64,000 bases of DNA, from contig NZ_CP022203.1 in assembly GCF_002305895.1 (NCBI RefSeq), positions 2,272,501-2,336,500 on the forward strand, given 5' to 3'. This document shows positions 3,780 to 26,258 of the stretch, piece after piece. Origin of the DNA: Corallococcus macrosporus DSM 14697 (GTDB lineage: Bacteria > Myxococcota > Myxococcia > Myxococcales > Myxococcaceae). The position numbers and the translations under genes are program-made. Under the pieces are notes generated by a model. It was not told the origin of the DNA. It saw nothing but the letters and a program-made list of their open reading frames with translations, and did not search any database. How positions within the stretch are numbered: position 1 is the first letter of the stretch; each line of letters begins with the position of its first letter.

Positions 3780-4051
3780 GTGGATTTCCTGGGGAGCTGT
3801 GTGGGTTTTTGTGGTTGAGGGTGGGTGGCACTTGTTCCATCGTGCTCTTTAGTTGATGGAGATTGTATTTGTGATGAGTGACCTTTTGTAGGTGGGTGGA
3901 AAACGCCCCGGCCTGGGGTTGTCTGTCCTACTTGGGTGGTTGTGGAGTGGGTGGAGTTGAGGTGGAGTCTGTCTCTTTAGTCCCTTGAATGGTTGGAGCT
4001 TTGCGCGAGGCAGTCCGTGTATGCCCAGGCTTGGTGTGCGACTCCCGAAAA
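3780..4051 (-). promoter_or_regulatory. A+T-rich upstream region of the cargo operon
   Basis: This stretch lies between the terminase stop and the 112-residue gene. The part from 3780 to 3900 is unusually T-rich on the plus strand for this genome and is the only place from which the leftward operon at 2191-3779 could be independently transcribed. I cannot name a -35/-10 pair with confidence. Confidence 0.3.
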
Positions 4052-6181: not shown

Positions 6182-7366
6182 TGGGGCACGCCGCCTCCGC
6201 GCTGAGCGCCCGCGAGAGCCCCAGGGCGGGGCGGGCAGCCGCGCGGAGGCGGTGAGGGGTGGCCGTGCTCGGGGCCCGCGCGGACTGCCCCAGGCGCAGG
6301 CGCAGCCAGCGAAAGTGAACAGCGCGAGGCGTTCACTTACCGGGTGCAAATGAACAGGGGAGGGGTGTTCACTTTTTCGGGGGTGACTCTCTCGAAAAGG
6401 GCCCCAGATACATGCCCCGGCGGCGAGGCCCGCACGAAAGATCGCACCACCCCCCACCCTGGCGTCAGGGGTAGGCGGGGTAGGCGTGCTGGCGTCATCG
6501 GTAGGCATGGTTGCGCCCGGCGGGGGCAGGCGGTGAAGGTGGCGGGGGAGGAACTGGACCGCGCGATGGGCGGCTGGCGGCCCCAACCAGCGGAAAGCGG
6601 CAATCGGCCTCGGCGCTTCGGCCCTTCATGAGGGCTCGTAAGCGCGCGAAACAGCGTGGGGGCGGTGACGCCGAATGGCCGCCTTTACCCATTTCCGGCC
6701 ATTCGGCTCGGCCCTGGTAACGGCACGCGCGCCCAGGTGCGCGCGGGGCGGAGGGTGGGGGCGCGGGGGCTCTGGCTCGGAGTCGTGGGGCTCACGAGGA
6801 GGACAAAGGCCTGCGGCCCGAAGCGCTGGGGGACACGCGCGCACGAAAGGGGCGCCACGCGGCGACAGACGCGGTGCGCGGGGCCAAACCGGGGCCGCGC
6901 GCCAGGTGGGCCACGTGGCCGCCAGGGGGGCTTCGGGGGAGGGGGGGCAGGTGGGCGGGAAAGTGAACGGCGCGCATGCGTCCGGCCCGCTGGACGGGGT
7001 GTGCTTCCGGGCCCGAGTTATGGCCCGGGGCGATACCGCGGTGCTCAAGCACCTGGTGGCTGTCCGCCCCAACCCCGCGAAACTACGGAGGCTGTGGCGC
7101 CGGGCGTGTGCATCCGCGCGCCAGGTGGAGCTCCCGGGGGAAAGTGAACGGGTGTGGCCTGGCGCGGCGAAAGTGAACGGCGAAAATGAACGCGAAAGTG
7201 TCCGTTCACTTACCGCTGGACACTTTCAGACGGGGGCGGCGGGGGGCAGGGGCTTCCAACGCGAGCTCTCAGGGCTCTGCAGCAGAATCGTGCCCTCGCG
7301 TCACATCCATGCGATAGGGGCGGCAGAGCACGCCTGCGTACATCTGTGCTCGTCGGAGGACACCCC
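6182..7366. repeat. Non-coding block with dispersed AAGTGAAC-type repeats
   Basis: About 1.2 kb with no convincing gene despite open frames, which follow from extreme GC content. It contains at least eight copies of a short motif around AAAGTGAACGGCG: direct copies near 6312, 6348, 6959, 7141, 7169 and 7182, and inverted copies (GTTCACTT) near 6331, 6367 and 7204; a partial CACTTTC is at 7221. The densest cluster is 7136-7227, about 140 bases before the next gene. Such spaced, partly inverted short repeats are seen in iteron origins, partition centromeres, recombinase accessory sites and multi-operator promoters. The flanking tyrosine recombinase is one candidate user. Confidence 0.65.
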
Positions 7367-7993
7367 ATGCGTCGTCTGGGCTTCCCCTATGTGATTCCGT
7401 ACTCGGCAGGCGAGCACGTCGTCTCATTCGGCGCCACACGCGCAGTACTAGAGCCGCTGGGCCAACCGGCCTACGTGGACGACGACTCCTCCCGAACTGC
7501 GGGGGGGCGCGAGGTCTTCTGGGCGTTTGAGCGTGAAGATGGCCTCCGGTTCGAAGTTGTCTGGAAAGAGCCGTACGGGGTTGCCGCGGTGCATGCGGAC
7601 CCGCCTGATGCAGAGCAGGTCATCACAGCGCTGCGCAGCCTCGGACTTGAAGGCCCTTTCGAGAAGCACCATCTCCCCGAGGGACGCTCCTTGCGGCGCG
7701 GCCATGCACGCTGGGCAGTGTGGCTCTTCACCGGCCAGAATGCCGCAATGCCGACGGCGGTCTTCTCCAGGAAGCAACTGGCGGACGCTTGGCTGGCTCA
7801 GACGAGGTACTCCGGAACACTCGTGGCCTACCCGCTCGACAGGTCCCTCTACGACGCTGCGAGGAGCTTCGGCGTTCAGCACTTGCCTCCAGATGGCTCA
7901 GCGGAAGCGCAGCAGTACGTCGGCACCACGGTCGAGAGCTATGTGTACGTGGCCGGAAAGCAGGTGGCGAAGAGTGACGATGCACATCTCTGA
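7367..7993 (+). CDS. DUF7710-like protein, possible immunity-type protein
   Basis: A 208-residue soluble protein; the ATG at 7367 follows GGAGGACACCCC. The C-terminal half, from WAVWLFTGQNA through TAVFSRKQLADAWLA to LVAYPLDRSLYDAA, matches the pattern I know from DUF7710 proteins (a Trp-Val-Phe strand, a helix with the aligned Trp, then TAYPLD). The N-terminal half is unassigned. Proteins with this domain often sit in polymorphic-toxin immunity islands. Here it is followed by a toxin-gene tail and a SUKH-3 gene, which supports that setting. Function is not shown by sequence. Confidence 0.6.
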   Translation: MRRLGFPYVIPYSAGEHVVSFGATRAVLEPLGQPAYVDDDSSRTAGGREVFWAFEREDGLRFEVVWKEPYGVAAVHADPPDAEQVITALRSLGLEGPFEKHHLPEGRSLRRGHARWAVWLFTGQNAAMPTAVFSRKQLADAWLAQTRYSGTLVAYPLDRSLYDAARSFGVQHLPPDGSAEAQQYVGTTVESYVYVAGKQVAKSDDAHL

Positions 7994-8148
7994 CTTGGTG
8001 GTGGGCGTTCGCCGATGAGGAGACGCTACAGAACTACGGGTGCACCGTCGGATGGGCCTGCCGGCTCCAGTTCCCCGCCGCCGCTCACCACCTCCGCGCC
8101 CACTTCGCCGCGACCCATGCCGTGCAGGGGGCACCAGCGTTGGTTTAG
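7978..8148 (+). pseudogene. Tail of a truncated gene just before the group II intron
   Basis: A 56-codon open stretch with strong GC3 coding bias and no start codon, reading WAFADEETLQNYG, then GWACRLQFPAAAHH and ending at TAG 8146-8148. It overlaps the end of the gene before it in another frame, so it looks like the leftover 3' end of a deleted gene. It lies 14 bases before the intron insertion point and would abut the SUKH-3 gene after splicing, so it may be the end of the matching toxin. That identity is inference. Confidence 0.35.
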
Positions 8149-8690
8149 GTTGTGCCGTCATGGTGCGTCCTGAAGGACGAGCAAGAGGAGCACGTCCATG
8201 CTCCACCAGACCGGCGGGTGAAAGTCCCGTCCGGGTAGACACCGGAGTGCCCGGTAGCAGGCCCCAGCCGACCGCCGAGAGGCGGCAGGCCACAGCGGGG
8301 CGTCAAAAGCCTCCATTCGGGAGGGAGCAAGAGCGCGGGCCGCAACATCAAGTGAAGCCTGCCGCCTCGACAGATACACAATGGGAGCGCCGAGCCGAGC
8401 ATGTCGCGGCGAAGGCCAGGTCCGCTGCGGACGAGTCCGGATGGGAAGCAGCGGGGCTCCCCGGGGTATGGGGCGTGGCACGTGCTCAAGGTCTGGTGGG
8501 GAACAGGAGAGACCCGTCTGCGCGGCCGTCGTCGCGGCAGGGCCCCGCGTATAAGCCGAAGGTGAAAGCGTGGGGAGCGCAGCGGGAGTCCGAGGGGGCC
8601 GTAGTACCGGCGAGGGGCGTGCAAGACAACGCGCCCGGAGGGAAGGGCCCCTGCTTGGGTGGTGCTTGGGCGGGAGGTAAGAGCGAGGGC

Positions 8691-10124
8691 ATGAGCCGCC
8701 AAGAAGGCTCCAATCCCCCCGGTGGGCCAGAGTCCACCGACAAAGTTCGACAACTCCAGCGCAAGCTCTTCGTGGCAGCCAAGCGGTGCCGGGAGCGCCG
8801 TTTCCATGCGCTGTATGACCGAGTCCACCGGAGTGACGTCCTGTGGGAAGCATGGCAGCGGGTCCGACGCAACAAGGGCGCTGCCGGCGTGGATTCAGTC
8901 ACGCTGGCGGCGGTGGAGCAGTACGGCGCACAGCGGCTGGTGCAGGAGCTGGGCGAGGTACTGCGAGCAGGAACCTACAAACCGCCCGCGGTGCTCAGGC
9001 GGTTCATTCCCAAGGCGGACGGGAAACTCAGGCCGCTGGGCATTCCGACGGTGCAGGACCGTATCGTGCAGATGGCGGTGAAGCTGGTGCTGGAGCCTGT
9101 CTTCGAGGCGGATTTTCTTCCGTCGTCGTATGGCTTCCGGCCACGTCGAAGCGCGGTGCAGGCCCTGGAGCGCATCCGGGAGGCAGTCAATGCCGGGTGT
9201 CACCACGTGCTCGACGCGGACATCCGCGACTACTTCGGCAGCATCGACCATGAGCTGCTGATGGAGCGGGTGGAGCGGCGGGTGTCGGACCGGAGGGTGC
9301 TCAAGCTGCTGAGGCAGTGGCTGAGTGCGGGAGTGGTGGAGGAGGGCCGGTACTCCGAGACGGTCTCGGGGACACCGCAGGGGGGAGTGATTTCCCCGCT
9401 GCTCTCCAACATCTACCTGCACTTCTTCGACAGCGTGTGGCAGCGGCAGTGCGCGCAGGTGGGCGAGCTGGTGCGCTACGCGGATGACTTCGTGGTGCTG
9501 TGCAAAGGCCGCGAAGCTGCCGAGGAGGCCGAACGAAGGGTGCGCATCATCTTCGGGAGGCTGAAGCTGCAACTGCACCCGGAGAAGACGCGGCGAGTGG
9601 AACTCACCGAGGGCAAGGAAGGCTTCGACTTTCTGGGCTGCCACCTGCACAAGCGCATGTCGGGCAAGCTGTGGCAGCAGCGGGGAGTGCGCCGCTACTA
9701 CCTCCAGCGGTGGCCGTCAGCGCGGAGCATGAAGCGGGTGAGGGCTCGGGTGAAGGAGCTGACGAGCCGACAGCGGCACGGGGTGAAGGATGTCCGAGAA
9801 ATCATCGGCGGCCTGAACCCGGTGTTGCGAGGATGGGGCAACTACTTCCGCACCGGGAACGCGGCCCGAAAGTTCAATCAACTCGACTCCTACGTCTTCC
9901 GGCGGCTGCACCAGTTCATGGTGAAACGCAGAGGCAGGAAGCTGCGGGCCGGCCAGGCGGACGCATGGAATCGAGCGTGGTTCTGGGAAAGAGGCCTGCA
10001 CCGGTTGCATGGGACGATTCGCTACCCGAAACCGTGCATGCTGCACGACAACACTCTCGTTAAGCCGTATGCGGGAAAACCGCACGTACGGTTTGAAAGG
10101 AGGAGGGTGGAAACGGGCCGCTGA
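8691..10124 (+). CDS. ltrA: Group II intron-encoded reverse transcriptase/maturase
   Basis: Reverse transcribes the intron during retrohoming and helps it splice. The ATG at 8691 begins a 477-residue protein with RT block RT1 (LYDRVHRSDVLWEAW), the fingers (RRFIPKADGKLRPLGIPTV), palm motif A (LDADIRDYF), block 4 (GTPQGGVISPLLSN), the catalytic YADD (RYADDFVVL) and the maturase X region (GLNPVLRGWGNYF). No HNH endonuclease Cys pairs are visible at the C-terminus, so it is probably an endonuclease-less type. The frame continues upstream to 8040 but that is intron RNA. The last 20 codons read through domain V, as in many such introns. Confidence 0.92.
   Translation: MSRQEGSNPPGGPESTDKVRQLQRKLFVAAKRCRERRFHALYDRVHRSDVLWEAWQRVRRNKGAAGVDSVTLAAVEQYGAQRLVQELGEVLRAGTYKPPAVLRRFIPKADGKLRPLGIPTVQDRIVQMAVKLVLEPVFEADFLPSSYGFRPRRSAVQALERIREAVNAGCHHVLDADIRDYFGSIDHELLMERVERRVSDRRVLKLLRQWLSAGVVEEGRYSETVSGTPQGGVISPLLSNIYLHFFDSVWQRQCAQVGELVRYADDFVVLCKGREAAEEAERRVRIIFGRLKLQLHPEKTRRVELTEGKEGFDFLGCHLHKRMSGKLWQQRGVRRYYLQRWPSARSMKRVRARVKELTSRQRHGVKDVREIIGGLNPVLRGWGNYFRTGNAARKFNQLDSYVFRRLHQFMVKRRGRKLRAGQADAWNRAWFWERGLHRLHGTIRYPKPCMLHDNTLVKPYAGKPHVRFERRRVETGR
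10062..10094 (+). ncRNA. Group II intron domain V hairpin
   Basis: Catalytic domain of the intron. It shows the AGC triad near its 5' end, a helix of CCGTATGCGG type closed by a GAAA-type tetraloop, and the matching CCGCACGTACGG strand. It overlaps the last codons of the maturase. Confidence 0.8.
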
Positions 10125-10148
10125 CGGTACCGCGCCACCCCTCTACCA

Positions 10149-10706
10149 ATGACTTCATATGAGGCTGCGGTGCGCTGCCTGAGCGAGGAGGTTCTTAAGC
10201 TTCTTGCCGAGCGCGGTTGGACTGTGGACCGGCGCGCCCCTCTGGACGAGGCAAGGGCTTCACTGGAATTGGCGAGTGCGCCCCTTCACGCCTATGCAGA
10301 GGCATTTCTCAGGGCATTTGACGGGCTTCAATTCCACCATCCCGGCACAGGCCGGAGCATGAAGGTGAGCGCTGCGGACACCTGTTCATGGTTCGATGAG
10401 GAGGCGTTGCCATACGTCCAGGCCCTCTTTTCCAAGTCTGCGTGCCCAGTGGCGCTGGGCGCCCGCTCTTCTTTGGAAATCTCGGTACCAAGCGGGCCTG
10501 GCTCAAGTGGCGCGTTTCCTGGCTGCTGGTATTTTGTCGCGGAGGATGGCCGATGGCTGTGCATCGACATCTACTGGAGCGGTGCCTGGTTTCTCCCCAG
10601 CCTGGATGCGGCTCTTCGGTTCGCACTGCTCGATGAGGGGGCCGAATCTGGCCGGGTGCCACTCACCCGCGAGCAGTGCCCCCCTGGAACATGGTCAGAC
10701 TCCTGA
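10149..10706 (+). CDS. SUKH-3 family immunity-like protein
   Basis: A 185-residue cytoplasmic protein. The N-terminal pattern LAERGWTVDRR, followed by a helix, FLRAFDGLQF and later WYFVAEDGRWLCIDIYWSGAWF, matches SUKH-3 proteins, which neutralise nuclease-type polymorphic toxins. No Shine-Dalgarno sequence is visible before ATG 10149; the group II intron ends three bases upstream, so normal expression may depend on splicing or on coupling to the truncated frame at 7978-8148. No intact toxin gene is next to it, so it is an orphan immunity gene here. The family call is good; the cognate toxin is unknown. Confidence 0.7.
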   Translation: MTSYEAAVRCLSEEVLKLLAERGWTVDRRAPLDEARASLELASAPLHAYAEAFLRAFDGLQFHHPGTGRSMKVSAADTCSWFDEEALPYVQALFSKSACPVALGARSSLEISVPSGPGSSGAFPGCWYFVAEDGRWLCIDIYWSGAWFLPSLDAALRFALLDEGAESGRVPLTREQCPPGTWSDS

Positions 10707-10723
10707 GCGGACGAACTCGACTC

Positions 10724-11878
10724 TCACGCATCCTGGGACATCAGGCGCCTCGATTGTCCAGAGGCGAGAATCTCGTCACTCGGATGGCTCGCGCTATCGC
10801 TCTCCTTGTCCTCGCTCTCCACTTCAGCGTCGACCTCACCGCGCTCGGCGGGCGTCGTCTCCCGCGCGACGCGCAGGGCCTGGGCGTGCCGGGCCTGGAG
10901 TCCCTCCAGCGAGAAGCTGGCGTGCAGTTCCTGGCGTGAGTCGGCGCCGCCCATGACGAACTCCTTGAGCCTCACCATGGTGTTGAAGTCGGTGGGGTTG
11001 TCGACGCGCACGCGGCCCTCGGCCAGCGCTTCCTCGAAGCCGAGGAGGTAGCCGTCAATCATCTTCAGGGCGTCGTCCTTGCTGACGGCGATGGCGTTGG
11101 CGCGCAGTTCAATCAGCTTCTGGTCCGCCTTGGTGGCGATGCGAGTCTTGGCCTCCTCGCGGCGGCGCAGGCAATTGTGCTCCCTGGAGTAGTTGGCGAT
11201 GAGGGAGGTGGCGACGCCGAAGCGCTCGGCCAGCTCGCGGTAGGACGCGTAGGACGTCATGGTTGAGCCGTCGGGGAGCGCCTTGACGTCGCCGAAGACG
11301 AGGGCCTTGTCGAGCTCCTGGCGCGGGAGGGCGGGCTCCGCGGACTTGAGGGGGCGGCCCAATTTGCGCTGCGCGGTAGGCGGTGGGGGAGGTGGCGCTT
11401 CGGCAGGCGCGGACGTCGGTGGCGGAGGGTGTGCTTCGGCAGGCCCGGGCGGCGCGAGTGGCGCGGGAGGAGGCAGCGCTTCGGTGGGCGCGGGCGGCGG
11501 CGGGAGAGGTAGCGCCTCGGCAGGAGCAGGCGGCGGGGGAGGTAGCGCTTCGGCGGGCGCGGGCGACGCGAGTGGCGCGGGCCGCGGCGGAGGATGCGCT
11601 TCGGCGCGCACCGGCATCGCACGTGAGGTGCCCGCGAGGAGGCGCTTGCGGCGGCCGAGGCAGTCGTGGTGCTCGGCGTACCGGGCAATGGCGCTGTGGG
11701 CGACGCCGAAGCGCTGCGCCAACTCGCGGAAGGAGGGGAAGCGCCTCCTCACATAGCCCCGTGGGGTAGTCACCTCTTCGCCCTCGACGAGGAGCCGGTC
11801 CACGGTGTCAGAGGGAAACCGGGGGCCTTCGGCCTTGGTGGGGCGCCCCAGCTTCTTGAAGGGCTTCTTCTGGGCCAT
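10724..11878 (-). CDS. Duplicated-HTH protein, terminase small subunit-like
   Basis: A 384-residue DNA-binding protein built from two copies of one unit. Copy 1 (residues 7-80) contains [28 protein letters not shown] and HDCLGRRKR; copy 2 (about 170-245) contains [29 protein letters not shown] and HNCLRRREE. Both carry a helix-turn-helix. They are joined by about 85 residues of Pro/Ala repeats ([11 protein letters not shown] type). A third, alpha-helical part and an acidic tail follow. Terminase small subunits have a similar HTH plus oligomerisation layout, and this gene ends the leftward run that precedes the terminase. It could instead be a regulator. Eight bases separate it from the gene upstream. 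Confidence 0.5.
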
Positions 11879-12696: not shown

Positions 12697-13031
12697 CGCG
12701 GACGGGCCTCCCACCACTCGCGCACCAACTCGAGGAAGTCGTCCAGCGGCATGGCGACGAGGGGCGGCTGCCCGTCGTCCTTGCACACGGCCAGCGGCCA
12801 GCGCCCCGCCGGGCACGTCTCCACAGCCTGACGCAGGGCTTCGCGGACGTTGGTGCGCCGATGGGCTTTCGATTCCACCCAGAAGCAAGGCACCTCGACG
12901 TCCGGCACCTCTTCACCACTGCGGTACTGAAGGCCGCGGCGGATGAGAGCGTCGGGCATGGCCTCGCGAAAGCGATGGACGAGGGCGCGTTCCCAATCGG
13001 CACCCTTGCGACGAGAGGAGGCGCCGCTCAC
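12693..13031 (-). CDS. PD-(D/E)XK nuclease, Holliday-junction-resolvase-like
   Basis: A 112-residue protein starting GTG 13031, overlapping the exonuclease stop as GTGA. The small nuclease core is visible: RRKGADWERALV (conserved Glu helix), a beta strand with EEVPDVEVP (catalytic Asp), then FWVESKAHRR (the ExK pair). This is the arrangement of archaeal Hjc and phage resolvase-like nucleases and of VRR-NUC-like enzymes. In a phage it would trim branched DNA before packaging. It is the third gene of a tightly overlapping leftward DNA-processing operon. Confidence 0.65.
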   Translation of the reverse strand: MSGASSRRKGADWERALVHRFREAMPDALIRRGLQYRSGEEVPDVEVPCFWVESKAHRRTNVREALRQAVETCPAGRWPLAVCKDDGQPPLVAMPLDDFLELVREWWEARPR

Positions 13032-13687
13032 GAGACACCTCCCGACTCCTCCATCAGCCGCTCCATGTGGCCGCCCCGGGCCATGCGCACCGCGAGGCAG
13101 CGGGCCACCTCCAGCGCGCAGCGGGCGTCCGCCATGGCGCGGTGAGGCGTCGGCCGGTGGAGGCCGAAGCGCTTGGCCAGGGCGTTGAGGGAGAGAGACT
13201 CCACCTCGCCCGTGGCGAGCAGCGGCCACGCGAGGCTGGCGGTGTCGAGGCGGTGGTAGTCGACGCCGGGCAGGGGCAGCCCGGCGCGGCGGTAGCCCTC
13301 GACGAGGAAGCCCCAGTCGAAGCTGGTGTTGTGACCGGCAACGAGGGTGCCCGCCAGGAGCGGCGTCACGGTGGCGAGGGCCTCCTCCAGGGGCAAGGCG
13401 TCCCGCCACTCCTCGTCGGAGTAGCCGCACACGGCCAAGGCCTCGGGGTGGGCGTCGGCAAGCCGGGTGGGCTGCACGCGCGCCTCGTACTCCGCCAGCA
13501 CCTTGAGGCTGCGAGCGTCGACGCGCAACACCGCCACCTCCAGCACCTCGTGGCGGGAGGCGTCCAGGCCCGTCGTCTCCAAGTCAATGAAGGCGAGCGT
13601 GCGCAGGTGCGGCGGGAGGCCACGGAAGAGGGGCTGGTGAAGGACGGGGGTGGGGGTGGTGTCGGAAGCGGGGTGGGCGAGCAGCAC
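13028..13687 (-). CDS. DnaQ-like 3'-5' exonuclease (DEDDh)
   Basis: A 219-residue exonuclease with all DEDDh motifs: Exo I FIDLETTGLD, Exo II VAGHNTSFDWGFL and Exo III HRAMADARCALEVARC, where the His and Asp five residues apart identify the h subtype. The first 30 residues are a Pro-rich leader. The start is GTG 13687, one base into the stop of the nuclease gene upstream (TAGTG). It resembles the epsilon proofreading family rather than RNase T. In this operon, with two other nucleases, it is likely part of phage recombination or DNA maturation. Confidence 0.85.
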   Translation of the reverse strand: MLLAHPASDTTPTPVLHQPLFRGLPPHLRTLAFIDLETTGLDASRHEVLEVAVLRVDARSLKVLAEYEARVQPTRLADAHPEALAVCGYSDEEWRDALPLEEALATVTPLLAGTLVAGHNTSFDWGFLVEGYRRAGLPLPGVDYHRLDTASLAWPLLATGEVESLSLNALAKRFGLHRPTPHRAMADARCALEVARCLAVRMARGGHMERLMEESGGVS

Positions 13688-14862
13688 TATGCAACCTCCT
13701 TGGCCCAGAAGCGGGGCGAGTGGTGTTTGGCGGCGAGGGACTCCAGCTCGGCCTTCAGCAGCGCGACGCGCGCGGTGCCCAGGCGCTTGCCCGCGTCCTT
13801 CAGCAGCGCGTCGAGGGCCTTCTTCTCGACGCTGGCGAGGCGCTCCACCAACTCCTCACGGGAGAGTCCGGTGGCGCGGGCTAGCACCTCGACGGTGGGC
13901 TCTAGCGGGTAGTCGAGGCTGGTGGTGTTGAACATGCGGTAGCGCGTGCCGGCGAGGACGAGCTCGTCCTGCTCGGCGAGGTGGGCCCGGAGGACGCCCT
14001 CCAGCTCCGCCTTTCGCGCGCCGAGAATCTTCGCGAGGTGGGCGACTTCCTGGCGCTCGCGGGCGACGGACTCCAAGTCGCCCGTGTCCCGGCAGACGAC
14101 TTCACGCTGGCCCGTCAGCGCGCGGGCGTAGGTGGGGCACTGGCGCCGGTGGTCGCAGTAGACGCAGTTGGGGTTGAGGCGGGCCGGGAAGGACTCCGCC
14201 TTCTCCATCTGCTGGCCCAGCGTCTCGACGTAGGCGAGGGCGGCGTCCAACTGCTCCTCGGCGCGCGTCGTCTCCTGCAGCACGCCGTGGCGGAGCATCC
14301 ACATGGACAGGCGCACGCGCTTGGCCCAGGGCCAGAGGCGGCGCGCGGCGAGGGCGTAGAGGCTGAGCTGGAGGCTGGCGTCCAGCTCCTCGCGGGTGAA
14401 GAGCTGGTGGTTGGACTTGTAGTCCATGACATGGACTGTCTCGTCGTCCACCCAGTCGACGCGGTCGATGAAGCCCAGGACGGTGAAGGGCCCCACCGGC
14501 AGGCGGAACTCCTTCTCCACGGCGAGGATGTCGCGGCAGTCCACGTGGCCCTGCTGGCGGACGAAGTCCTGGAGGATTCCGAGGCCCTGCTGGAAGAGGG
14601 AGAGGCCACAGAGGCCCGAGGTGGCCCACGCTTCACGGTAGAGCTGGAGGGCGCGCTCCTCGGAGAGCGGACCCGCGTACTCGGTGTCGATGACTTCCTG
14701 GAGGAGCCGCTCGAGCACGGCGTGCAGTGCCTTGCCGAAGTTCAGGGGGACACCGGGCTCGGCGGTGTGCTTGTCGAGGTAGTGCAGCCGGTAGGACAGC
14801 GGGCAGGCCTCGAAGCGGCTCAGCCGGCTGTATGACAAATGCTGGTTTCGCAGGGCGCTCAT
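13687..14862 (-). CDS. RecB/Cas4-like PD-(D/E)XK nuclease with Fe-S cysteines
   Basis: A 391-residue nuclease of the PDDEXK_1 (AddB/RecB/Cas4-like) group. It starts [20 protein letters not shown] at an ATG behind GGAGG. Residues seen: the first cluster Cys in FEACPLSYR, His in [12 protein letters not shown], catalytic Asp in HVMDYKSN with its Lys, the QLSLYALA helix, and the C-terminal triplet [14 protein letters not shown], which with the first Cys would bind a 4Fe-4S cluster. The tail of about 120 residues is helical. It is a stand-alone nuclease domain without helicase. It heads the five-gene overlapping leftward operon. Confidence 0.85.
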
Positions 14863-14992: not shown

Positions 14993-15601
14993 TCATCGCG
15001 ACACCTCGTCCGCGGAGGCGGAGGGCTTCTCGAAGGACATGACGCGCGAGCCCGGGAATGCGGAGAGGACGCGCACCAGGGTGGCGGCGTGCTCGGGGGT
15101 GAGCTCCTTCCGGGCCTGGCCGGTGTAGGCCGGCACGAGCCACACCTCGCCGTAGCCTTCGGAGGCGAAGCACACCTCGGCGCCGAGGGCCTTGAAGCTG
15201 GCGATGTCCTCGTCGGTGAGGCCGCGCAGGGGGGAGGGCAGTGCCTTCGCGTGGGGCGCGGCCAGCTCCGTCACGTCAGGAGGTGGAGCGGGTGGCGAGG
15301 GCTTGGCGGAGGGCCTCTTCGAGCCAGCCTCGGGCAGGGGATGGCCGAACAAGTCCACTGCGGCCGGAGCGGTCTTCACCGGAGGCGCAGGGACAGGTTG
15401 AGCGGCCACGTCACGATGAGGCCGGGCCAGCCCATTCGCCTTCCGCCACTCGGTGCACGTGCCCACACCGGGCAGGGCGCAGCCGCCATTGGCGAGGTAG
15501 TGCCGGCAGCGCTTGCCCTCACCGCGGACGTACATCTCGCACGTCACGCCGGCGGGGCGCTGAGGGGCAGCCGTGGGTTGAAGGTGGTGAGTGAGGGCCA
15601 T
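14993..15601 (-). CDS. Zinc-finger-like hypothetical protein
   Basis: A 202-residue protein. Residues 20-50 hold a Cys/His cluster (TCEMYV...KRCRHYLANGGCALP...CTEW) resembling a small zinc-binding motif. A Pro/Ala linker follows (about 65-110), then a C-terminal alpha/beta domain containing EVCFASEGYGEVWLVPAYTG and ELTPEHAATLVRVLSAF. No family recognised. It lies 130 bases upstream of the nuclease operon in the same direction and faces the repeat-rich centre of the element, the usual place for an early regulator or replication accessory protein. Confidence 0.6.
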   Translation of the reverse strand: MALTHHLQPTAAPQRPAGVTCEMYVRGEGKRCRHYLANGGCALPGVGTCTEWRKANGLARPHRDVAAQPVPAPPVKTAPAAVDLFGHPLPEAGSKRPSAKPSPPAPPPDVTELAAPHAKALPSPLRGLTDEDIASFKALGAEVCFASEGYGEVWLVPAYTGQARKELTPEHAATLVRVLSAFPGSRVMSFEKPSASADEVSR

Positions 15602-16674
15602 CCGCAGTGTCCGGCGGCGTGTGCGTTGCCGCTACAAGGTAAATGCGGTGCCTTGAGGCGACGTGGGACACGGGCGGATTTAGAGCGAATTCTTTTCGGA
15701 ATTTCGGCAGGGCCCGTGCGCGCGTGTCCCTTCACATGGAAGGCGTGCCTCCTTCGCGTGAATGCCCTTGGACTGCTGACACACGTCGCGGCGGTACAAA
15801 GGCACCGTCCTCGAACTCGGGGACATGGACAGGCGCGTTTTCGCGAGGGGCCATGAAGTGCTGTCCACCTGGCCACTTGCTGGACGCGGGTGTGTCCGCC
15901 GAATTCCTCAGCAATCCCATGGAGTTACACCGAAGTGGACAGGTGGACAGCATTTTGAGGGGTAGGGCTACTTTCGTAAGCCAGCTTCCCCGCGACTGCT
16001 TTTACAGGTTTTGGCCCAGGGAGATTCGGCGCTGCCTCAATAGGGGTACCCGTAGAAAGCTGTCCATGCTGTCCACTTAGTAGTTAACAATATAAATACA
16101 TAATAATAATGGATGGTTAGAGGTAAAGAGGGGTGGACAAGGTGCTGTCCCGGCCCTGTCCCAGGTGTCCACGCAGCCGTCCACCTGTGCCGGGAGGCTG
16201 CCCTCAGAGAGGGAAAGGCCTCGGTAGAGTCCAGCCCGCGGCCAGGCTGTGAAGAGGCCGGCCTCCGAGACGACACCAGCGCCCCAGGCAGGCGCGGCCC
16301 AGGACTTGAAACCGGGCGTGGCCTGAAAAGCCAGAAGGCCTCGTGTCGCGTGGCTTCGTCCTTCGGCCCGCGACTCGGCCTGTTGATACACAGTGAAACT
16401 GTGTTTCACATGGCGCACGTCTCCCCGCGTGGACGCACGTCCCAGCCTGTGCCGGCGGCCTTGCTACGCAGCGTGTGAATTCAGCCGACGCAGGTGGGTG
16501 CGTCCGGACTGTGCGTCACTGGGCATGGATGTCGCAGAGGGGGCGCGCATGTCCCCGAATTGAGGCCCGCGGGCTTTGCCGTGAAGGAGGACGCTGGCCG
16601 CAGGAGTCACGTCCCGCCAGGCCGTTGAAGGGGGAGTCCCGTCGCCGCTGTCGCGACGAAGGAGGGGGAAGTCC
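15602..16674. repeat. Non-coding centre with GTGGACAG repeats and an A+T-rich tract
   Basis: Divergent intergenic region between the leftward and rightward arms, with no convincing gene. Motif GTGGACAG or its complement occurs near 15858, 15935 and 15943 (two in direct tandem), 16060 (variant), 16069, 16133, 16164 and 16178, with looser copies near 15830 and 16144. The cluster brackets a tract at 16081-16120 that is nearly all A/T, striking in this GC-rich DNA. Repeats next to an easily melted tract are the usual layout of an iteron-type origin; they could equally be operators for a repressor controlling both arms. Confidence 0.6.
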
Positions 16675-16830
16675 GTGAAGCTGAAGTCACAGAGTACGCC
16701 AGCCAGGGAGGCGCGCCGCGCCGCCTCTACGCGTGTCCCGCCCGCGGCGGCCGACTCGCACCGCGTGGACGGCACCTGCTGTCCTCCGGCCGTCGCTTGC
16801 TACCGCGCGCAGGCGCGCCGGTTAGCGTAG
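16675..16830 (+). CDS. Possible small protein behind a strong ribosome site
   Basis: A 51-codon frame starting at GTG 16675 behind GGAGGGGGAAGTCC, the best Shine-Dalgarno in the central region. The product begins MKLKSQSTPAREARR and contains GTCCPPAVACY. It is basic with three Cys. It lies 92 bases before the sigma-like gene. It could be a real small regulator or a leader frame; high GC content alone can produce such frames. Confidence 0.3.
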   Translation: MKLKSQSTPAREARRAASTRVPPAAADSHRVDGTCCPPAVACYRAQARRLA

Positions 16831-16921
16831 CCCGGCCTCTCCGCAAGCGAAGCGACGCCCACTTCCACCGCTGCCGTGTGCAGGTGGCCGGAGGAAGGGC
16901 CGTCGTCGGTTTCCACGGGGC

Positions 16922-17761
16922 ATGACTGCCTCCATTCCAACCGGCCCCTGCCCCGCGCAGGACGCCCGGCAGGACAGGCATTCCATAGTGAGAAGGTGCT
17001 GGAAGACGCTGCACGAGGGCTTCGGTACCGCCCTCCAGACAGCCCAGGCGCAGCGCGCATTCGACGAGGCGAAGTTGCACCGGGCGTGCCTTGCGGCCTT
17101 TGACGGGCCCGAGGCCCTCGTCAGCTACCTCGTCAGCCCGGACGTGCCCGCGGACGAGAAGAATGGCCTCTACACGGGGCTGGTGCTGCTGGTGCAGGGG
17201 CGGGCGGCGTGTGAGGTGGCCTGGCCGCTGCTGTGGCTGGGGCTGTGGCCCGGGTTGGACGCCGTGTACCAGCGGCGGCTGAAGTACTTCCCTGGCGCGG
17301 CCGACGAGCTCGCCTCCACCCTGGCCACGGCCTTCACCGCGTTGGTGAAGCGCCTCAACCTGGACACCACCCAGCGCGTGGCCGCGACACTCGTGCGCAG
17401 CACGGAGCGCGACGTCATGGACGCGTGGCGGCGTGCCCGTACAGAAGACGTCCGGTACAGCCGGTACCGCGAGAGGGAGGAGGCCGTGGCCGCCGAGGCC
17501 GGGCTGCTTTCTCCAGCCCTCTCCGAGGTGGGCCTCTCCGTGAGGATGCAGGTGGAGTCCCTGGCGAAGTGGCTCCACCCGCTGGCCCCCATGGACGCAA
17601 AGCTGGTGCTGTCCGTCCTCCTCTTGGACGAGGAACAGTCAGCCGTCGGCGCGCGCCTGGGGCTGGCGCCCGCGGTGGCCCGGAAGCGCTTCCAGCGCGC
17701 CCTGCTGCGCCTGCGCCGGGAAATGGAAGCTGCAGAGGACTCCGACGGCACAACGGCGTGA
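16922..17761 (+). CDS. ECF-like sigma factor, first main gene of rightward arm
   Basis: A 279-residue protein. The middle holds ADELASTLATAFTALVKRLN, then ERDVMDAWRRARTEDVRYSRYRERE, a layout like sigma region 2. The C-terminus, LVLSVLLLDEEQSAVGARLGLAPAVARKRFQRALLRLRRE, is a good sigma region 4 helix-turn-helix. The N-terminal 80 residues are unassigned. It is unlike the sigma-like protein at 11887. Placed first in the rightward replication arm, it may switch on early genes. Myxobacterial chromosomes have many ECF factors, so a captured host factor is also possible. Confidence 0.55.
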   Translation: MTASIPTGPCPAQDARQDRHSIVRRCWKTLHEGFGTALQTAQAQRAFDEAKLHRACLAAFDGPEALVSYLVSPDVPADEKNGLYTGLVLLVQGRAACEVAWPLLWLGLWPGLDAVYQRRLKYFPGAADELASTLATAFTALVKRLNLDTTQRVAATLVRSTERDVMDAWRRARTEDVRYSRYREREEAVAAEAGLLSPALSEVGLSVRMQVESLAKWLHPLAPMDAKLVLSVLLLDEEQSAVGARLGLAPAVARKRFQRALLRLRREMEAAEDSDGTTA

Positions 17762-18198: not shown

Positions 18199-18924
18199 AT
18201 GGCCAATATGTGGGAACAGACGGAGGAATTGGCGAAGCGGCACGAGCAGGCCGGAGGCGCCTGGCTGAAGCTGGTGAATGACGGGGACACGGCGGTGGTG
18301 GTTTTCCTCGGAGAGCCGCACCCGCGCGAGGTGGTGTTTCACGAGGGCAAGTACGTCCTCTATGACGAGAAGCTGCGGGCCCAGGGGCACAAGCCCTCGC
18401 TGCGCGTGGCCCTCAACGTCGCCCTCTTTGACACCCGCGAGGTGAAGGTGCTGGAGATGGGCGTGGCGGTATTCAAGGACGTGCGCCAGTTGCGGGCGAA
18501 GTACGGCCTGGAGAAGTGGGCCTTTGAAGTGAAGCGGCGCGGGGCCGCGAAGGACCCGAAGACAACGTACTCCCTGCTGCCCGAGCGCCAACTGACGCCG
18601 GAAGAAGCCTCCGCCTTCCAGGCCCTGCGCCTGCACAACCTGGCGAAGCTGTACGCGGCGGAAGCCGAGGAGGACGGCGCCCCTCCGACTGCCGAAAGCC
18701 CAAGGGCAGCGCCAGTGGACGTTGCCGCAGCGCAGGCGCTGGCGGCGCAGCTGAAGTCCCTCCCGCGCGAGGCGGTGGACCGCTTCCTCCAGCATTTCGG
18801 CGTGCAGCGGATTCGGGACGTGCCGGCAACGCGCGGCGAGGAAGCGAGAGGCTTCGTCCAGTCCCTCGTCGCCCGCTACGCGCCGCCCGAAGACTCGGCA
18901 GACGTCGACCCATTCGCGGGCTGA
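18199..18924 (+). CDS. Possible phage single-stranded DNA-binding protein
   Basis: A 241-residue protein with an N-terminal beta-rich domain (residues 20-120) beginning AWLKLVNDGDTAVVVFLGEP and including KVLEMGVAVFKDVRQL and KWAFEVKRRG, a pattern that recalls gp32-type OB-fold proteins of phages. An Ala-rich linker and a C-terminal helical part ending in the acidic tail EDSADVDPFAG follow; acidic tails are usual in such proteins. It sits five bases after a small gene and directly before helicase and primase genes, which fits. I did not see a conserved zinc motif, so this is a moderate guess. Confidence 0.4.
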   Translation: MANMWEQTEELAKRHEQAGGAWLKLVNDGDTAVVVFLGEPHPREVVFHEGKYVLYDEKLRAQGHKPSLRVALNVALFDTREVKVLEMGVAVFKDVRQLRAKYGLEKWAFEVKRRGAAKDPKTTYSLLPERQLTPEEASAFQALRLHNLAKLYAAEAEEDGAPPTAESPRAAPVDVAAAQALAAQLKSLPREAVDRFLQHFGVQRIRDVPATRGEEARGFVQSLVARYAPPEDSADVDPFAG

Positions 18925-19001
18925 GGGGAACCTCGTCCGCGGCAACACATGACGCGCAGGGCTGAAGGCCAACGCCCGCGCACCTTCCCAATGGAATTCA
19001 T

Positions 19002-20525
19002 ATGCAGAACCACCACTCCGAAACCTTCGGGGCCGGGAGGGCCTTGCCCTCAGCCAGCCCCAGTCCAAGCCGGCGCATGGGGCCGGCGCCGTCCACCTCT
19101 CCGGGGGCCGCCACCCTGCGCGTCCTCGTGGACTCCGGACTGCGCCTCGCGGCGGCAGACGTGCCACCGAAGCTGCTGGAGGGACTGGTGAAGGCCCTCT
19201 GCTTGCCCAACCCCGCGTACTGGAAGCTGGTGCGGCTGGGGAAGCGCCCGGGCAGTGAGCCGGAGATGCTGTACTTCCTCAAGCAGGAGGGCGGGGAGGT
19301 AAGGCTACCCCGCGGGGCCATTCACCTCCTGCGGCGCTTGGCCACCGAGGCTGGCCTCACCTTGGCGCTGGAGGATGCGCGGACTCTCCCCAGAGAGCGC
19401 CTGCCTCCCATGCCTACGGTGCCGCTGCGGGACTACCAGGCCGCGGCCGTGGAGAAGCTGGTGAAGGGGACACAGGGCACGGTGGTGCTGCCGTGCGGGG
19501 CGGGGAAGAGCGTCCTGGCGGTAGGGGCCATGGCCCGCCTCCGGACGCCGACACTCGTCCTCGTCCACACGTTGGACTTGGCCGAGCAGTGGCGACAGCA
19601 CATTCGCGAGCGCCTGGGCCAGGAGGCCGGCCTCGTGGGGGCGGGGGAGGAGGCGGTGCGCCCCATTACCGTGGCCGTGGTGCAGTCTCTCGCCCGCTGG
19701 GACGAGGCGCGGCTGGCGGACTTCCTCGCGCGCTTCGGCTTCCTCATTCTCGACGAGGCCCACCATGTGGCCGCCAGCGCCTTCTACCGCCTGGTGGATT
19801 GCAGTCCGGCGCGTTACCGGCTGGGCCTGACGGCCACGCCAGAGAGGGAGGACGGACTGACGCCGCTGCTGCGCCTGTACCTGGGCTCCACCCTGGCCGC
19901 CGTCTCCCATGAGGAACTCGTCTCCCGCGGCGTGCTGGTGGTGCCCGAGGTGCGCACCGTGGAGACGGCCTTCGACTACCCCTACTTCGGCGCGGCGGAC
20001 TACATGCCCATGCTGGAGGCGCTGGCGGAGGACAAGGAGCGCAACAACCTCATTCTCGGCGCCGTGGCCCGCGAGGCCTGGGCGGGCCACCTGTGCCTCG
20101 TCCTCACGGGCCGGGTGGCGCATTGCGAGCTGCTGGCGCAGCGCCTCTCAGCCACGGGCCTGCCGGCCGCGGCGCTGACGAGCGAGGTGTCGCGCGAGGA
20201 GCGCAAGGCCCTCCTGGACAAGGCCCGCGCGGGGCGCGTGTCCGTCCTCGTGGCCACAAGCCTGGCTGACGAGGGCCTCGACGTGCCGCGCCTGTCCCGC
20301 GTCTTCCTGGCCTACCCGAGCCGCGCCCGGGGGCGCACCGTGCAGCGCCTGGGCCGCCTCATGCGGCCCCACCCGGAAAAGAAGAGCGCCGTCCTCTTCG
20401 ACTTCGTGGACGGGAAGGTACCTCTCCTCCGGCGACACCATGCCGAGCGCCGACAGCAGTACGCGCAGGTGCTGGGGACGGCCCCGGTGGCTGCGGCTGC
20501 ACCGCGGCGGGCCGCGAAGGGGTAG
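19002..20525 (+). CDS. XPB/RAD25-like SF2 DNA helicase
   Basis: A 507-residue ATP-dependent helicase. After about 140 residues of unassigned N-terminus come the Q-motif-like LRDYQAAAVEKL, Walker A PCGAGKSVLA, motif Ia LVLVHTLDLAEQW, DEAH box FLILDEAHHV, motif III LTATPER, then the second RecA domain with LVLTGRVAHCELLAQRL, VATSLADEGLDVPRLS and motif VI VQRLGRLMRP. This is the XPB/UvsW-like branch used by phages in replication and recombination. No clear ribosome site precedes ATG 19002; ATG 19077 is a later option. It sits six bases before the primase-helicase gene. Confidence 0.88.
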   Translation: MQNHHSETFGAGRALPSASPSPSRRMGPAPSTSPGAATLRVLVDSGLRLAAADVPPKLLEGLVKALCLPNPAYWKLVRLGKRPGSEPEMLYFLKQEGGEVRLPRGAIHLLRRLATEAGLTLALEDARTLPRERLPPMPTVPLRDYQAAAVEKLVKGTQGTVVLPCGAGKSVLAVGAMARLRTPTLVLVHTLDLAEQWRQHIRERLGQEAGLVGAGEEAVRPITVAVVQSLARWDEARLADFLARFGFLILDEAHHVAASAFYRLVDCSPARYRLGLTATPEREDGLTPLLRLYLGSTLAAVSHEELVSRGVLVVPEVRTVETAFDYPYFGAADYMPMLEALAEDKERNNLILGAVAREAWAGHLCLVLTGRVAHCELLAQRLSATGLPAAALTSEVSREERKALLDKARAGRVSVLVATSLADEGLDVPRLSRVFLAYPSRARGRTVQRLGRLMRPHPEKKSAVLFDFVDGKVPLLRRHHAERRQQYAQVLGTAPVAAAAPRRAAKG

Positions 20526-20531
20526 CGACTC

Positions 20532-23500
20532 GTGACGGCTGTGTCTCCCTCGACTCCGGCGCCCAACCCCGAGGCCATTCGTGCCACGCGGCGGTGGCTG
20601 GCCCATGCGGCGCACGGGGTGAGTGAAGTCCGCGTCATTCGCCCTGGCGGTGGGGGCGTGGTGGGCCTGGGCTTCTTCGACGACGAGGACGCCTTCGTAG
20701 CGGCCTGTGTGGAGGCCAACGCCGCCGGCAACGTGTACGTGGGCATTCAGCCCCGGCCACGGCACCTGTTGGCGCTCGCCCCCAACGTCCTCCGTCCCCT
20801 CAAGAATGGGGCGGGCAGCAAGGACATTGAAGTCGTGACGGCCACCGTCCTCGACTTGGACCCGGTGCGCCCGAAGGACACGGCCAGCACCGAGGACGAG
20901 CTCGCCTCCGCCCTCCAGGCCGCGGAGGAGGCCGCGGCCTGGTGCGAGGGGCAGGGCCTCGTCCGCCCGCGGCTGATGATGAGCGGCAACGGGGCGCAGC
21001 TCTGGTTCGCCCTGCCGCCGCTACCGCTGGAGGGGGAGGCCAGAGAGCGCATTCAGGCCGGGCTGAAGGACTTCGAGGCCGAGGTGCGCGCGCGCTTCCA
21101 GTCCGGGCGCGTGCACGTGGACTCCATCCACGACGTGGCCCGCATCATCAAGGTGGTGGGCACCGTCAGCCGGAAGGGGGATGGCGCCCGCGAGCGTCCG
21201 CACCGCGTCGCCCAGGCCCCCTCCGGCTTCGAGCGCGTCGAGGACGCACCCCTCGCGGAGCGTCTGCAGCGGGCGCCTGTGCAGCAGGAGGCAGCGCTGC
21301 CCCGTCCCGCGCGCGTGTCGGTGCCGGCTTCCAGTGAGGCCGCGCCAGGGATGGTGAAGGCGAGGCGCACGCCGGAGGGCGCCTACGACTGGGAGCACCC
21401 GGTAGACATGTGTGGCCCGGTGCAGCGCCTATGGAATGAGGGCGCCGAGGACAGAAGCGTCGCCATTTTCGACATGGTGCGCTTCTTCGCGCACAAGGGC
21501 CTGGGCTTCGAGGAGATTACCGAGCTCGTCCTGGAGTACGACAGGCGGGGCCTGGGCAAGCTGAAGGGGCGCGACGGCAAGGCGTACGTCCGCAATGCCT
21601 ACGAGAAGGTGGTGGCCACCGGGCGAGAGGACGGGACGGTGGCGCCGCCCTGCCACTCGCTGCAGAAGCTGGGGTACTGCCACGTCAACCGCGAGCCGGG
21701 CGTCCGGTGCGAGTTGTACGACGCGGTTTTCGACATTGAGAAGGCCGTGGAGAAGGTGCCCGCGGACGCGCCGGCGAAGGAGGTGGAGTACCGCCTCAAG
21801 CCCATACTCGAGGCCATTGCCCACCGGCACCCCGCGCTGCACGACTTCTACCTGGAGTCGCTGCAGCAGCGCTTCGGCCTCGAGGCCGAGAAGCTGCAGA
21901 AGGCCCTGGCCCGGGTGACGGGGCAGCAGAAGAAGCCCGCGCCCTCCAGAGGCGACGCAGAGGCCGAGGACGCGCTGGAGGGCGAAGTCGTTGAGGGGCC
22001 GGACGGCTACTACGTGAAGGGCTACGAGGACGCACCCAAGCGCGTCTCCTCCTTCCTCCTCACGTTGACGGCGCGCCTCGAAACGGCAGACGAGGAGGTG
22101 TACGTGCTGGACGCACGCACGGACAATGGGACGCACCTGAAGGGCCTGAAGCTGCCGCTGAAGGCCTTCCACTCGAAGCGGGACTTCATCCGCCACCTGC
22201 CGCTGGGGGACATGCAGTGGGTGGGCACGGACAACAACGTCCAGGGTGTGCTGCGCCTGCTGACGCGCAAGGTGGTGCCGCGAATGCCAGCAGCGCGAGT
22301 CCTGGGCTACTACCAGCACCAGGGGCAGCCGCTGTGGCTGTCGCCCCGGTGCACCCTGGGGCCGGAGGGCTTCCTCACCGACTCCCCCGTGGTGTACCTG
22401 CCCAACGGGGCCACGCTGGAGGGCCACCTGCGCTACGAGGCGGCCAGCGACGAGGCCTTCCTCGAGGTGGCGCACACGGCCTTCGAATACCTGCCCCGCG
22501 TCAACACGCCCCAGGTGCTGCTGCCCATGCTGGGGTGGTTTTTCGCGACGCCGCTGAAGCCTCGCCTCATGGCGGCGGTGGGGGCCTTCCCGCTTCTCTT
22601 CATTCACGGGACGCAGGGCGGAGGGAAGTCCTCCCTCTGCACGGAAATATTCTGGCGACTCTTCGGCGTGGTGCACAAGGACGCCTTCAGCGCGACGGAA
22701 ACGGAATTCGCGCTGGTGAAGCTGCTGTCCTGCACCACCTCCGTGCCGGTGGTGGTGGACGAATACAAACCCCACGACATGCCCCAGCCGCGTCTCAACC
22801 AACTGCACCGCTACATGCGGCGCCTGTACCGCGGAGAAACCGAGGAGAGAGGCCGGCCTGACTTGAAGGTGAATAGCTACCCGCTGCAGGCCCCCTTGTG
22901 CATTGCCGGCGAGGCGCGCCCCCAGGAGGCTGCCCTGGTAGAGAGAATGCTGACGGCCACGCCGGAGAAGGCGACGGTGCTGCTGCCGGAGTACCGCGCG
23001 GCCTTCCAGAAGCTGAAGTCTGTCGACTTGCCCCTCTTCGCCCCTCGCTACATTCAATTCTGCCTGGGCCGGGACTTCGACGCGGACATGCGCGTGGCAC
23101 GCGCCGTGGCGGACGTCCTCTTGGATGGACGGCGGGTGCCACCGCGCGTCGTCGACAACGTGGTGGCCATGTTGCTGGGCATTCACCTCTTCGAGGAATT
23201 CGCGAAGGAGTGCGGCTGCGCGCTGCCCGTGGACTTGGGGGCACGTGAAGCGGTGGAGGCCCTATTGGCCGACGTCCTCGAAACCGAGGCCGGGGTGAAG
23301 AATGCCCTCGACGCCTTCCTCGAAATGCTGGGCGTCATGGCGATTCAAGGCGAGGTGCGGCACCGCGTCCATTACACCTTCGACAAGGAGGGGCGCCTCT
23401 GCGTCCACCTCGAGTCGGCGTATGACGCCTTCCGCGCGCACTGCAAGCGGATTGACTACCGCGGCGAGGTGGCGGACGTGAAGGCGCTGCGGCGCATGCT

Positions 23501-23690
23501 GCACGAAAACCACCGGCAGGGAGGCTACGTCGCGGCCATGGGGGAGCGCGTCTGCTTCGCCGGCGTGGAAAGCCGGCGCCGCGCATTCCTCGTCGACTTC
23601 TCCAAAACCAACCTCGTCACCGCTGACGACTTCCCTCGGGCGGACAGAGGACACTCCGCCCACCCTGGGGAGGACTACTTCAATGCATAG
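20532..23690 (+). CDS. Primase-polymerase fused to DUF927-like helicase
   Basis: A 1052-residue replication protein with two engines. The N-terminal archaeo-eukaryotic primase (about residues 1-230) shows the metal Asp pair in TVLDLDPVR, LMMSGNGAQLWF and DSIHDVARIIKVVGTVSRKG. A Cys-bearing segment follows (PPCHSLQKLGYCHVNR, GVRCELYD), as in primase C-terminal metal sites. The C-terminal half is a DUF927/SF3-like ATPase with Walker A FIHGTQGGGKSSL and Walker B VPVVVDEYKP. Such fusions prime and unwind phage or plasmid DNA. The GTG start at 20532 lies six bases after the helicase gene. Its stop overlaps the next start. Confidence 0.85.
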   Translation: MTAVSPSTPAPNPEAIRATRRWLAHAAHGVSEVRVIRPGGGGVVGLGFFDDEDAFVAACVEANAAGNVYVGIQPRPRHLLALAPNVLRPLKNGAGSKDIEVVTATVLDLDPVRPKDTASTEDELASALQAAEEAAAWCEGQGLVRPRLMMSGNGAQLWFALPPLPLEGEARERIQAGLKDFEAEVRARFQSGRVHVDSIHDVARIIKVVGTVSRKGDGARERPHRVAQAPSGFERVEDAPLAERLQRAPVQQEAALPRPARVSVPASSEAAPGMVKARRTPEGAYDWEHPVDMCGPVQRLWNEGAEDRSVAIFDMVRFFAHKGLGFEEITELVLEYDRRGLGKLKGRDGKAYVRNAYEKVVATGREDGTVAPPCHSLQKLGYCHVNREPGVRCELYDAVFDIEKAVEKVPADAPAKEVEYRLKPILEAIAHRHPALHDFYLESLQQRFGLEAEKLQKALARVTGQQKKPAPSRGDAEAEDALEGEVVEGPDGYYVKGYEDAPKRVSSFLLTLTARLETADEEVYVLDARTDNGTHLKGLKLPLKAFHSKRDFIRHLPLGDMQWVGTDNNVQGVLRLLTRKVVPRMPAARVLGYYQHQGQPLWLSPRCTLGPEGFLTDSPVVYLPNGATLEGHLRYEAASDEAFLEVAHTAFEYLPRVNTPQVLLPMLGWFFATPLKPRLMAAVGAFPLLFIHGTQGGGKSSLCTEIFWRLFGVVHKDAFSATETEFALVKLLSCTTSVPVVVDEYKPHDMPQPRLNQLHRYMRRLYRGETEERGRPDLKVNSYPLQAPLCIAGEARPQEAALVERMLTATPEKATVLLPEYRAAFQKLKSVDLPLFAPRYIQFCLGRDFDADMRVARAVADVLLDGRRVPPRVVDNVVAMLLGIHLFEEFAKECGCALPVDLGAREAVEALLADVLETEAGVKNALDAFLEMLGVMAIQGEVRHRVHYTFDKEGRLCVHLESAYDAFRAHCKRIDYRGEVADVKALRRMLHENHRQGGYVAAMGERVCFAGVESRRRAFLVDFSKTNLVTADDFPRADRGHSAHPGEDYFNA

Positions 23691-24710: not shown

Positions 24711-24714
<4 letters not shown>
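24517..24714 (+). CDS. Small conserved partner of DUF2924/recombinase
   Basis: A 65-residue protein, MSGPAFFQTYMGQRFYEST followed by a helix (RELKRLNDNVERLVAVAEQLAG). It overlaps both neighbours as ATGA, so it is translated with the DUF2924 protein and the recombinase. The FxxTxMGxxFYExxMP pattern recurs, to my knowledge, in front of such recombinases. The helix could be a short coiled coil for binding one of its neighbours. Confidence 0.7.

Positions 24715-26254
<1,540 letters not shown>

Positions 26255-26258
<4 letters not shown>

Follow-up and report, generated by a model that had tools for sequence, protein, structure and literature searches.

Two gene arms diverge from a gap in the window (the whole stretch of 64,000 nucleotides of Corallococcus macrosporus DSM 14697 DNA analysed here, contig positions 2,272,501-2,336,500) in which short repeats lie on both sides of an A+T-rich tract. 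A preliminary description of this DNA took the gap for an origin or main operator of the element, and we asked which of these functions, if any, the repeats serve.

The element and its repeat array

The array is held by an integrated phage-like (prophage-like) element with a large serine recombinase, relatives of which occur in Myxococcus, Corallococcus and other Myxococcaceae; the same module is present on two IMG/VR viral contigs. The left arm (minus strand) consists of a 202-aa gene, genes for a PDDEXK exonuclease and a DnaQ-like exonuclease, and those for two proteins of the viral families phrog_36246 and phrog_32085, with a terminase-like gene farther left. The right arm (plus strand) encodes a 279-aa protein, an SSB-like protein, an XPB-like helicase, a 1052-aa primase-helicase, a DUF2924 protein and the recombinase. 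The positions of these genes are as follows.

13028..13687, minus strand: DnaQ-like exonuclease (phrog_192)
13687..14862, minus strand: PDDEXK exonuclease, phage type (phrog_69)
14993..15601, minus strand: first conserved left-arm gene, 202 aa, no family match
16922..17761, plus strand: first conserved right-arm gene, 279 aa, no family match
18199..18924, plus strand: SSB-like protein, replication arm
19002..20525, plus strand: XPB-like helicase, replication arm
20532..23690, plus strand: primase-helicase, 1052 aa, proposed self-loading initiator
23304..23594, plus strand: predicted winged-helix domain of the primase-helicase (residues ~925-1021), proposed to bind the iterons
24711..26258, plus strand: large serine recombinase (integrase)

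The 279-aa gene (16922-17761) is the fastest-changing gene of the element, with ~43% identity between class A and classes B/C (defined below), compared to ~90% for the left-arm genes. In the phrog_32085 protein (10724-11878), an internal duplication pairs residues 8-78 with 171-241 at ~48% identity, and the first copy contains a helix-turn-helix match; directly to the left of the phrog_32085 gene lies a group II intron reverse transcriptase/maturase gene (8040-10124).

The gap from which both arms diverge was confirmed and spans 1.3 kb, from 15601 (start of the conserved minus-strand gene) to 16922 (start of the first conserved plus-strand gene). About ten repeat copies had been described, and at a threshold of at most one mismatch we identified 10 GTGGACAG-like 8-mers at 15825-16184, of which 4 are exact and 8 carry the TGGACA core. 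The reported direct tandem at 15935-15950 is likewise exact, both copies reading GTGGACAG. The array lies upstream of both arms, with 224 bp between its left edge and the first left-arm gene and 738 bp between its right edge and the first right-arm gene. The array is composed as follows.

15825..15832, plus strand: iteron ATGGACAG, first set
15861..15868, minus strand: iteron GTGGACAG, first set
15869..15876, minus strand: degenerate iteron GTGGCCAG, in tandem with the iteron at 15861..15868
15935..15942, plus strand: iteron GTGGACAG, direct tandem copy 1
15943..15950, plus strand: iteron GTGGACAG, direct tandem copy 2
16060..16067, minus strand: iteron ATGGACAG, minus-strand pair left of the A+T tract
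16069..16076, minus strand: iteron GTGGACAG, minus-strand pair left of the A+T tract
16077..16132, no strand: A+T-rich tract, candidate DNA unwinding element; slot kept in 20 elements, sequence not
16133..16140, plus strand: iteron GTGGACAA, second set
16165..16172, minus strand: iteron GTGGACAC, second set
16177..16184, minus strand: degenerate iteron GTGGACGG, second set

There are 7 exact copies of GTGGACAG in the 64 kb, compared to 2.7 expected by shuffling (maximum of 100 shuffles, 6), and 4 of these 7 copies fall in 15861-16076. At up to one mismatch, the window contains 85 matches vs. 64 expected in this GC-rich DNA. TGGACA cores number 8 in the 367-bp array region, whereas other stretches of this length in the window have no more than 3, and by this count per 367 bp no second repeat array was found in the 64 kb. 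The best 7-mer of the region is present in 6 copies, compared to a maximum of 4 in 2000 dinucleotide-preserving shuffles of the region. The exact tandem with zero spacer occurs once in the 8.97-Mb single-contig genome; when spacers of 0-4 bp are allowed, there is one further match in the genome, with a 4-bp spacer and distant from the array. An Rfam scan of 15.0-18.3 kb gave no match.

The stretch at 16081-16120, previously called nearly pure A/T, has an A/T content of 32/40 (80%), rising to 27/30 (90%) in 16081-16110; the wording was thus overstated, yet the tract is the A/T maximum of the window at the 30-, 40- and 50-bp scale. GC skew, which had been proposed as a check, shows no sign change at the array over 9-28 kb and is uninformative because the element is integrated.

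Conservation of the array in related elements

Repeat conservation in close relatives had been set beforehand as the test that the origin reading could fail. We compared the gap between the 202-aa and 279-aa genes in the window and in 19 related Myxococcaceae elements. All 19 keep the array in position, with order, strands and spacing conserved, and each has its A+T-rich tract at the corresponding slot. The repeats of the 20 elements fall into three spelling classes.

Class A (window, L029, L030, L065): GTGGACAG
Class B (L031, L034, L035, L089, L092): TGTGGACAG (GTGGACAG-type), spacing slightly different
Class C (L028, the window genome's second element, and ten others): GTGGCAG, same slots

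Between classes B and C, all iterons are respelled from GTGGACAG to GTGGCAG, with one base lost per repeat. A motif search for conserved spacing in related elements had also been suggested, and the spacing proved to be conserved across the three spelling classes, as seen from repeat positions and strands counted from the left gene start.

Class A (window): 225+ 261- 335+ 343+ 460- 469- 533+ 565-
Class B (L092): 178+ 200+ 212- 255+ 264+ 362- 371- 415+ 427- 437- 446-
Class C (L032): 178+ 189+ 199+ 222- 253+ 262+ 271+ 385- 394- 435+ 449- 460- 469-

The interval from the minus-strand pair to the next plus-strand repeat is 62-82% A/T in 20/20 elements, compared to ~38-44% for the gap; the sequence of the tract differs between classes, whereas slot and composition are kept. 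In the distant elements L096, L097, L098 and L100, GTGGACAG-like repeats surround an A/T-rich dip, such that repeats flank A/T-rich dips even where the element primase is only ~60% identical. A rearranged relative, L101, carries ACGGGACAG repeats at ~18741-19050, where the array is flanked by the primase gene on one side and the left-arm gene on the other; this is possibly a fourth spelling class.

Elements of different class reside together in five genomes, namely the window's own, which carries one GTGGACAG and one GTGGCAG element, and G004, G023, G017 and G096, whereas the co-resident elements of G019, G025 and G007 are all of class C. These genomes show no exclusion rule, and spelling classes as incompatibility groups were accordingly rejected. 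Orphan arrays, as expected of a satellite using the same origin, were also considered for genomes that lack the primase and were rejected, since G012, G024, G013 and G005 contain tandem matches that stand outside any array. In the second element of the window's genome, the serine recombinase gene (15274-16955) is interrupted and out of frame past about residue 69, so this element may lack autonomous excision. In L032 (~9900-11120) and L043 (~4010-5170), the XPB-like helicase gene contains an in-frame insert of ~1.1-1.2 kb at the Walker A motif (PCGGGK|C...HN|T), which has the look of an intein. In the class B element L089 (~6880-10950), the exonuclease and XPB-like helicase genes are for the most part gone by tblastn, yet the array and the full primase-helicase are kept.

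Co-variation of repeat spelling with the primase-helicase C-terminus

We compared class B with class C for 14 element proteins, using the difference between within-class and between-class identity. For 13 of the 14 proteins, this difference was at most 0.045. In the primase-helicase, it was ~0.01 for residues 1-480 and 0.35 for the last 52 residues (B-B 0.94, C-C 0.81, B-C 0.48). Exact label permutation gave 1/4368 for each part of primase residues 481-1052, and in this segment the nearest neighbour was of the same class in 16/16 cases. The 202-aa gene next to the array ranked second (p = 0.016), which is the effect that physical linkage would have; the C-terminal half of the primase-helicase is encoded more than 6 kb from the array.

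In phylogenetic trees, class C forms one fully supported clade for primase residues 721-1052. A class-C clade was rejected for primase residues 1-480 (p = 6 × 10−6), the SSB (p = 2 × 10−4) and the helicase (p = 0.006), with 5, 5 and 4 class changes on the respective trees. The SSB, the helicase and the N-terminal half of the primase are all encoded between the array and the primase C-terminus, which indicates that the intervening genes were reshuffled while the array and the C-terminus stayed matched. The repeats may have switched motif only once; the weight of the co-variation comes from the later reshufflings.

Positions at which every GTGGACAG-type protein differs from every GTGGCAG-type protein do not occur in 1-500 and are densest in 901-1052, the clearest class-diagnostic residue being R1017, changed to C, in the predicted wing. 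Residues 481-720, outside the winged helix, likewise sort by class, so that the co-inherited segment is longer than the winged-helix domain. An extra gene between the primase and DUF2924 genes was considered as the reader of the motif and rejected, given that it is present in only part of class C. Repeat spelling and initiator C-terminus form matched pairs, and since spelling follows the primase C-terminus and clearly follows no other of the 14 proteins, the pattern is the one predicted for an origin and its initiator. Of the two functions originally proposed for the array, the origin is the one that this co-variation, together with the conserved repeats, supports at the sequence level.

The predicted initiator, known systems and competing explanations

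The AlphaFold model of the whole primase-helicase has a mean pLDDT of 69. Its best Foldseek matches are the SCCmec Cch helicase, SaPIBov1 Rep, the SaPI5 primase-helicase and NrS-1, and its AAA+ helicase fold matches 5dgk, 8tch, 7ola and 7pds, with SCCmec Cch (5dgk) as the best match (E = 6 × 10−12). A PDB sequence search with the primase-helicase or its profile gave no meaningful match. Residues 925-1021 are modelled as helix-strands-helix-helix-strand-strand, a predicted winged helix with a wing formed by 1000-1008 and 1015-1021. The C-terminal model (pLDDT 81) aligns to residues 449-567 of SaPIBov1 Rep (Z = 7.2, VIA-align), among other winged helices; Foldseek with this model alone found no match below E = 0.3, and the Z score of about 7 therefore amounts to weak, fold-level support. 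The element is thus predicted, from these models, to encode a cognate helicase initiator with a C-terminal dsDNA-binding domain.

Several short repeats in two sets flank the A+T-rich region, as in origins of the PICI/P4 type. In PICI origins, two iteron sets flank an AT-rich region (PMC6092414), and SaPI Rep and SCCmec Cch2 recognise origin repeats through their C-terminal domain (PMC7581432). The window shares with SaPI/PICI the two iteron sets around an A/T-rich region, a helicase initiator, allelic specificity and a predicted fold similarity; however, sequence identity between the SaPI/PICI Rep and the window's primase-helicase is ~11%, and in SaPIs and the Cch2 system the initiator gene is directly followed by the origin, whereas the array in the window is 4.3 kb upstream of the gene, in the divergent gap. 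SCCmec Cch is the best Foldseek match of the window model and Cch2 binds direct repeats via its C-terminal domain, but the Cch2 array has only three short repeats and its element type differs. The annotated type-1 repeats of ori/crr in satellite phage P4 read GGTGAACAG, compared to GGTGGACAG in the window; in both, the repeats are 8 bp long and are grouped in tandem at 8-11 bp, on both strands and to either side of an A/T-rich tract. The P4 alpha protein also reads its repeats with the C-terminal domain of a primase-helicase (1KA8 covers the C-terminus), as proposed here. In contrast, type-1 repeats occupy two cis regions (ori and crr) in P4, compared to a single array in the window, and host, element type and gene content differ. 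Comparison with P4 alpha by hhalign aligned 47 columns at the P-loop only (probability 4%), and by sequence the window is not a P4 replicon. The Mx alpha prophages of Myxococcus xanthus are similarly integrated phage-like units of the same genus, often several per genome (PMC6070905).

Because, across related viruses, a change in repeat spelling coincides exactly with a change in the C-terminal part of the primase-helicase, we conclude that the array at 15825-16184 is very probably the replication origin of the integrated element, with GTGGACAG iterons bound by the C-terminal winged helix of the primase-helicase. Known relatives are the basis from which we infer binding, melting, self-loading and origin use. 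On their model, the primase-helicase (20532-23690) would bind the iterons via its winged-helix domain, and the initiator on the iteron sets at both sides would melt the A+T tract (16077-16132) as an unwinding element. The AAA+ core would then load itself and, with the fused primase domain, start forks, as P4 alpha and SaPI/PICI Rep do; the origin would be used after excision or induction of the element. No earlier account of this origin was found in the open papers searched.

The proposed origin belongs to a known kind, the iteron origin of a self-loading helicase, and the interesting part is the concerted respelling of iterons and wing, a natural change of specificity that is unusually clean. 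We consider it reasonably probable that the array and the origin-binding half of the primase are two separated halves of one exchangeable specificity cassette, with intervening genes exchanged independently and elements of different class replicating orthogonally in one genome. The matched repeat/wing pairs serve as natural experiments in origin reading by a self-loading helicase, with one lost base per repeat on one side and a handful of residues on the other, and are candidate orthogonal origin/initiator pairs. A widespread, uncharacterised myxobacterial prophage family thereby gains a proposed origin and initiator that can be tested; autonomous replicons are scarce in myxobacteria, pMF1 being described as the only plasmid (PMC3235114).

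The other explanations account for less of these observations. That the repeats are a functionless product of chance or composition agrees with the motif being common at one mismatch in this GC-rich DNA, but density, uniqueness, conserved geometry and concerted respelling all argue against it, as do the tandem matches in element-free genomes that have no array around them, and we regard its probability as negligible. A role as the main operator, through which a lysogeny-switch repressor or activator controls the two divergent arms, would suit the location in the divergent gap, the start of the repeats 224 bp from the first left-arm gene and the only sigma-70-like promoter match of the array, which overlaps the A/T tract in the window. 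This promoter is missing from the same slot in nearly all relatives (by a consensus scan; myxobacterial promoters may differ), and the array was not found to overlap conserved promoters of both arms. Moreover, the array stops 738 bp short of the first right-arm gene, repeat spelling is tracked by the primase C-terminus and not by the helix-turn-helix protein phrog_32085, any regulator-like gene tested or the other element genes, and 16384-16408 holds a separate, conserved palindrome that makes a better candidate for an operator. The operator half of the original proposal is therefore unlikely.

Initiators of iteron replicons often autoregulate, and the same co-variation would fit a primase-helicase that binds the repeats mainly for transcription control, with replication starting elsewhere in the element. 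Against this, the A/T tract between the iteron sets is kept by composition and not by sequence in all classes, and the window contains no second array; we find this explanation very unlikely as the main function, while the initiator may autoregulate at the array. Apart from the proposed origin, the gap contains the near-perfect palindrome 16384-16408 (TGATACACAGT-3-ACTGTGTTTCA), which is kept as TGATACA...TGTTTCA in most elements and is a candidate operator or promoter of the right arm. Most related elements have TGATACA...TGTTTCAC and, after it, a GTCC...TGGACG pair, with the first right-arm gene ~500-780 bp farther downstream.
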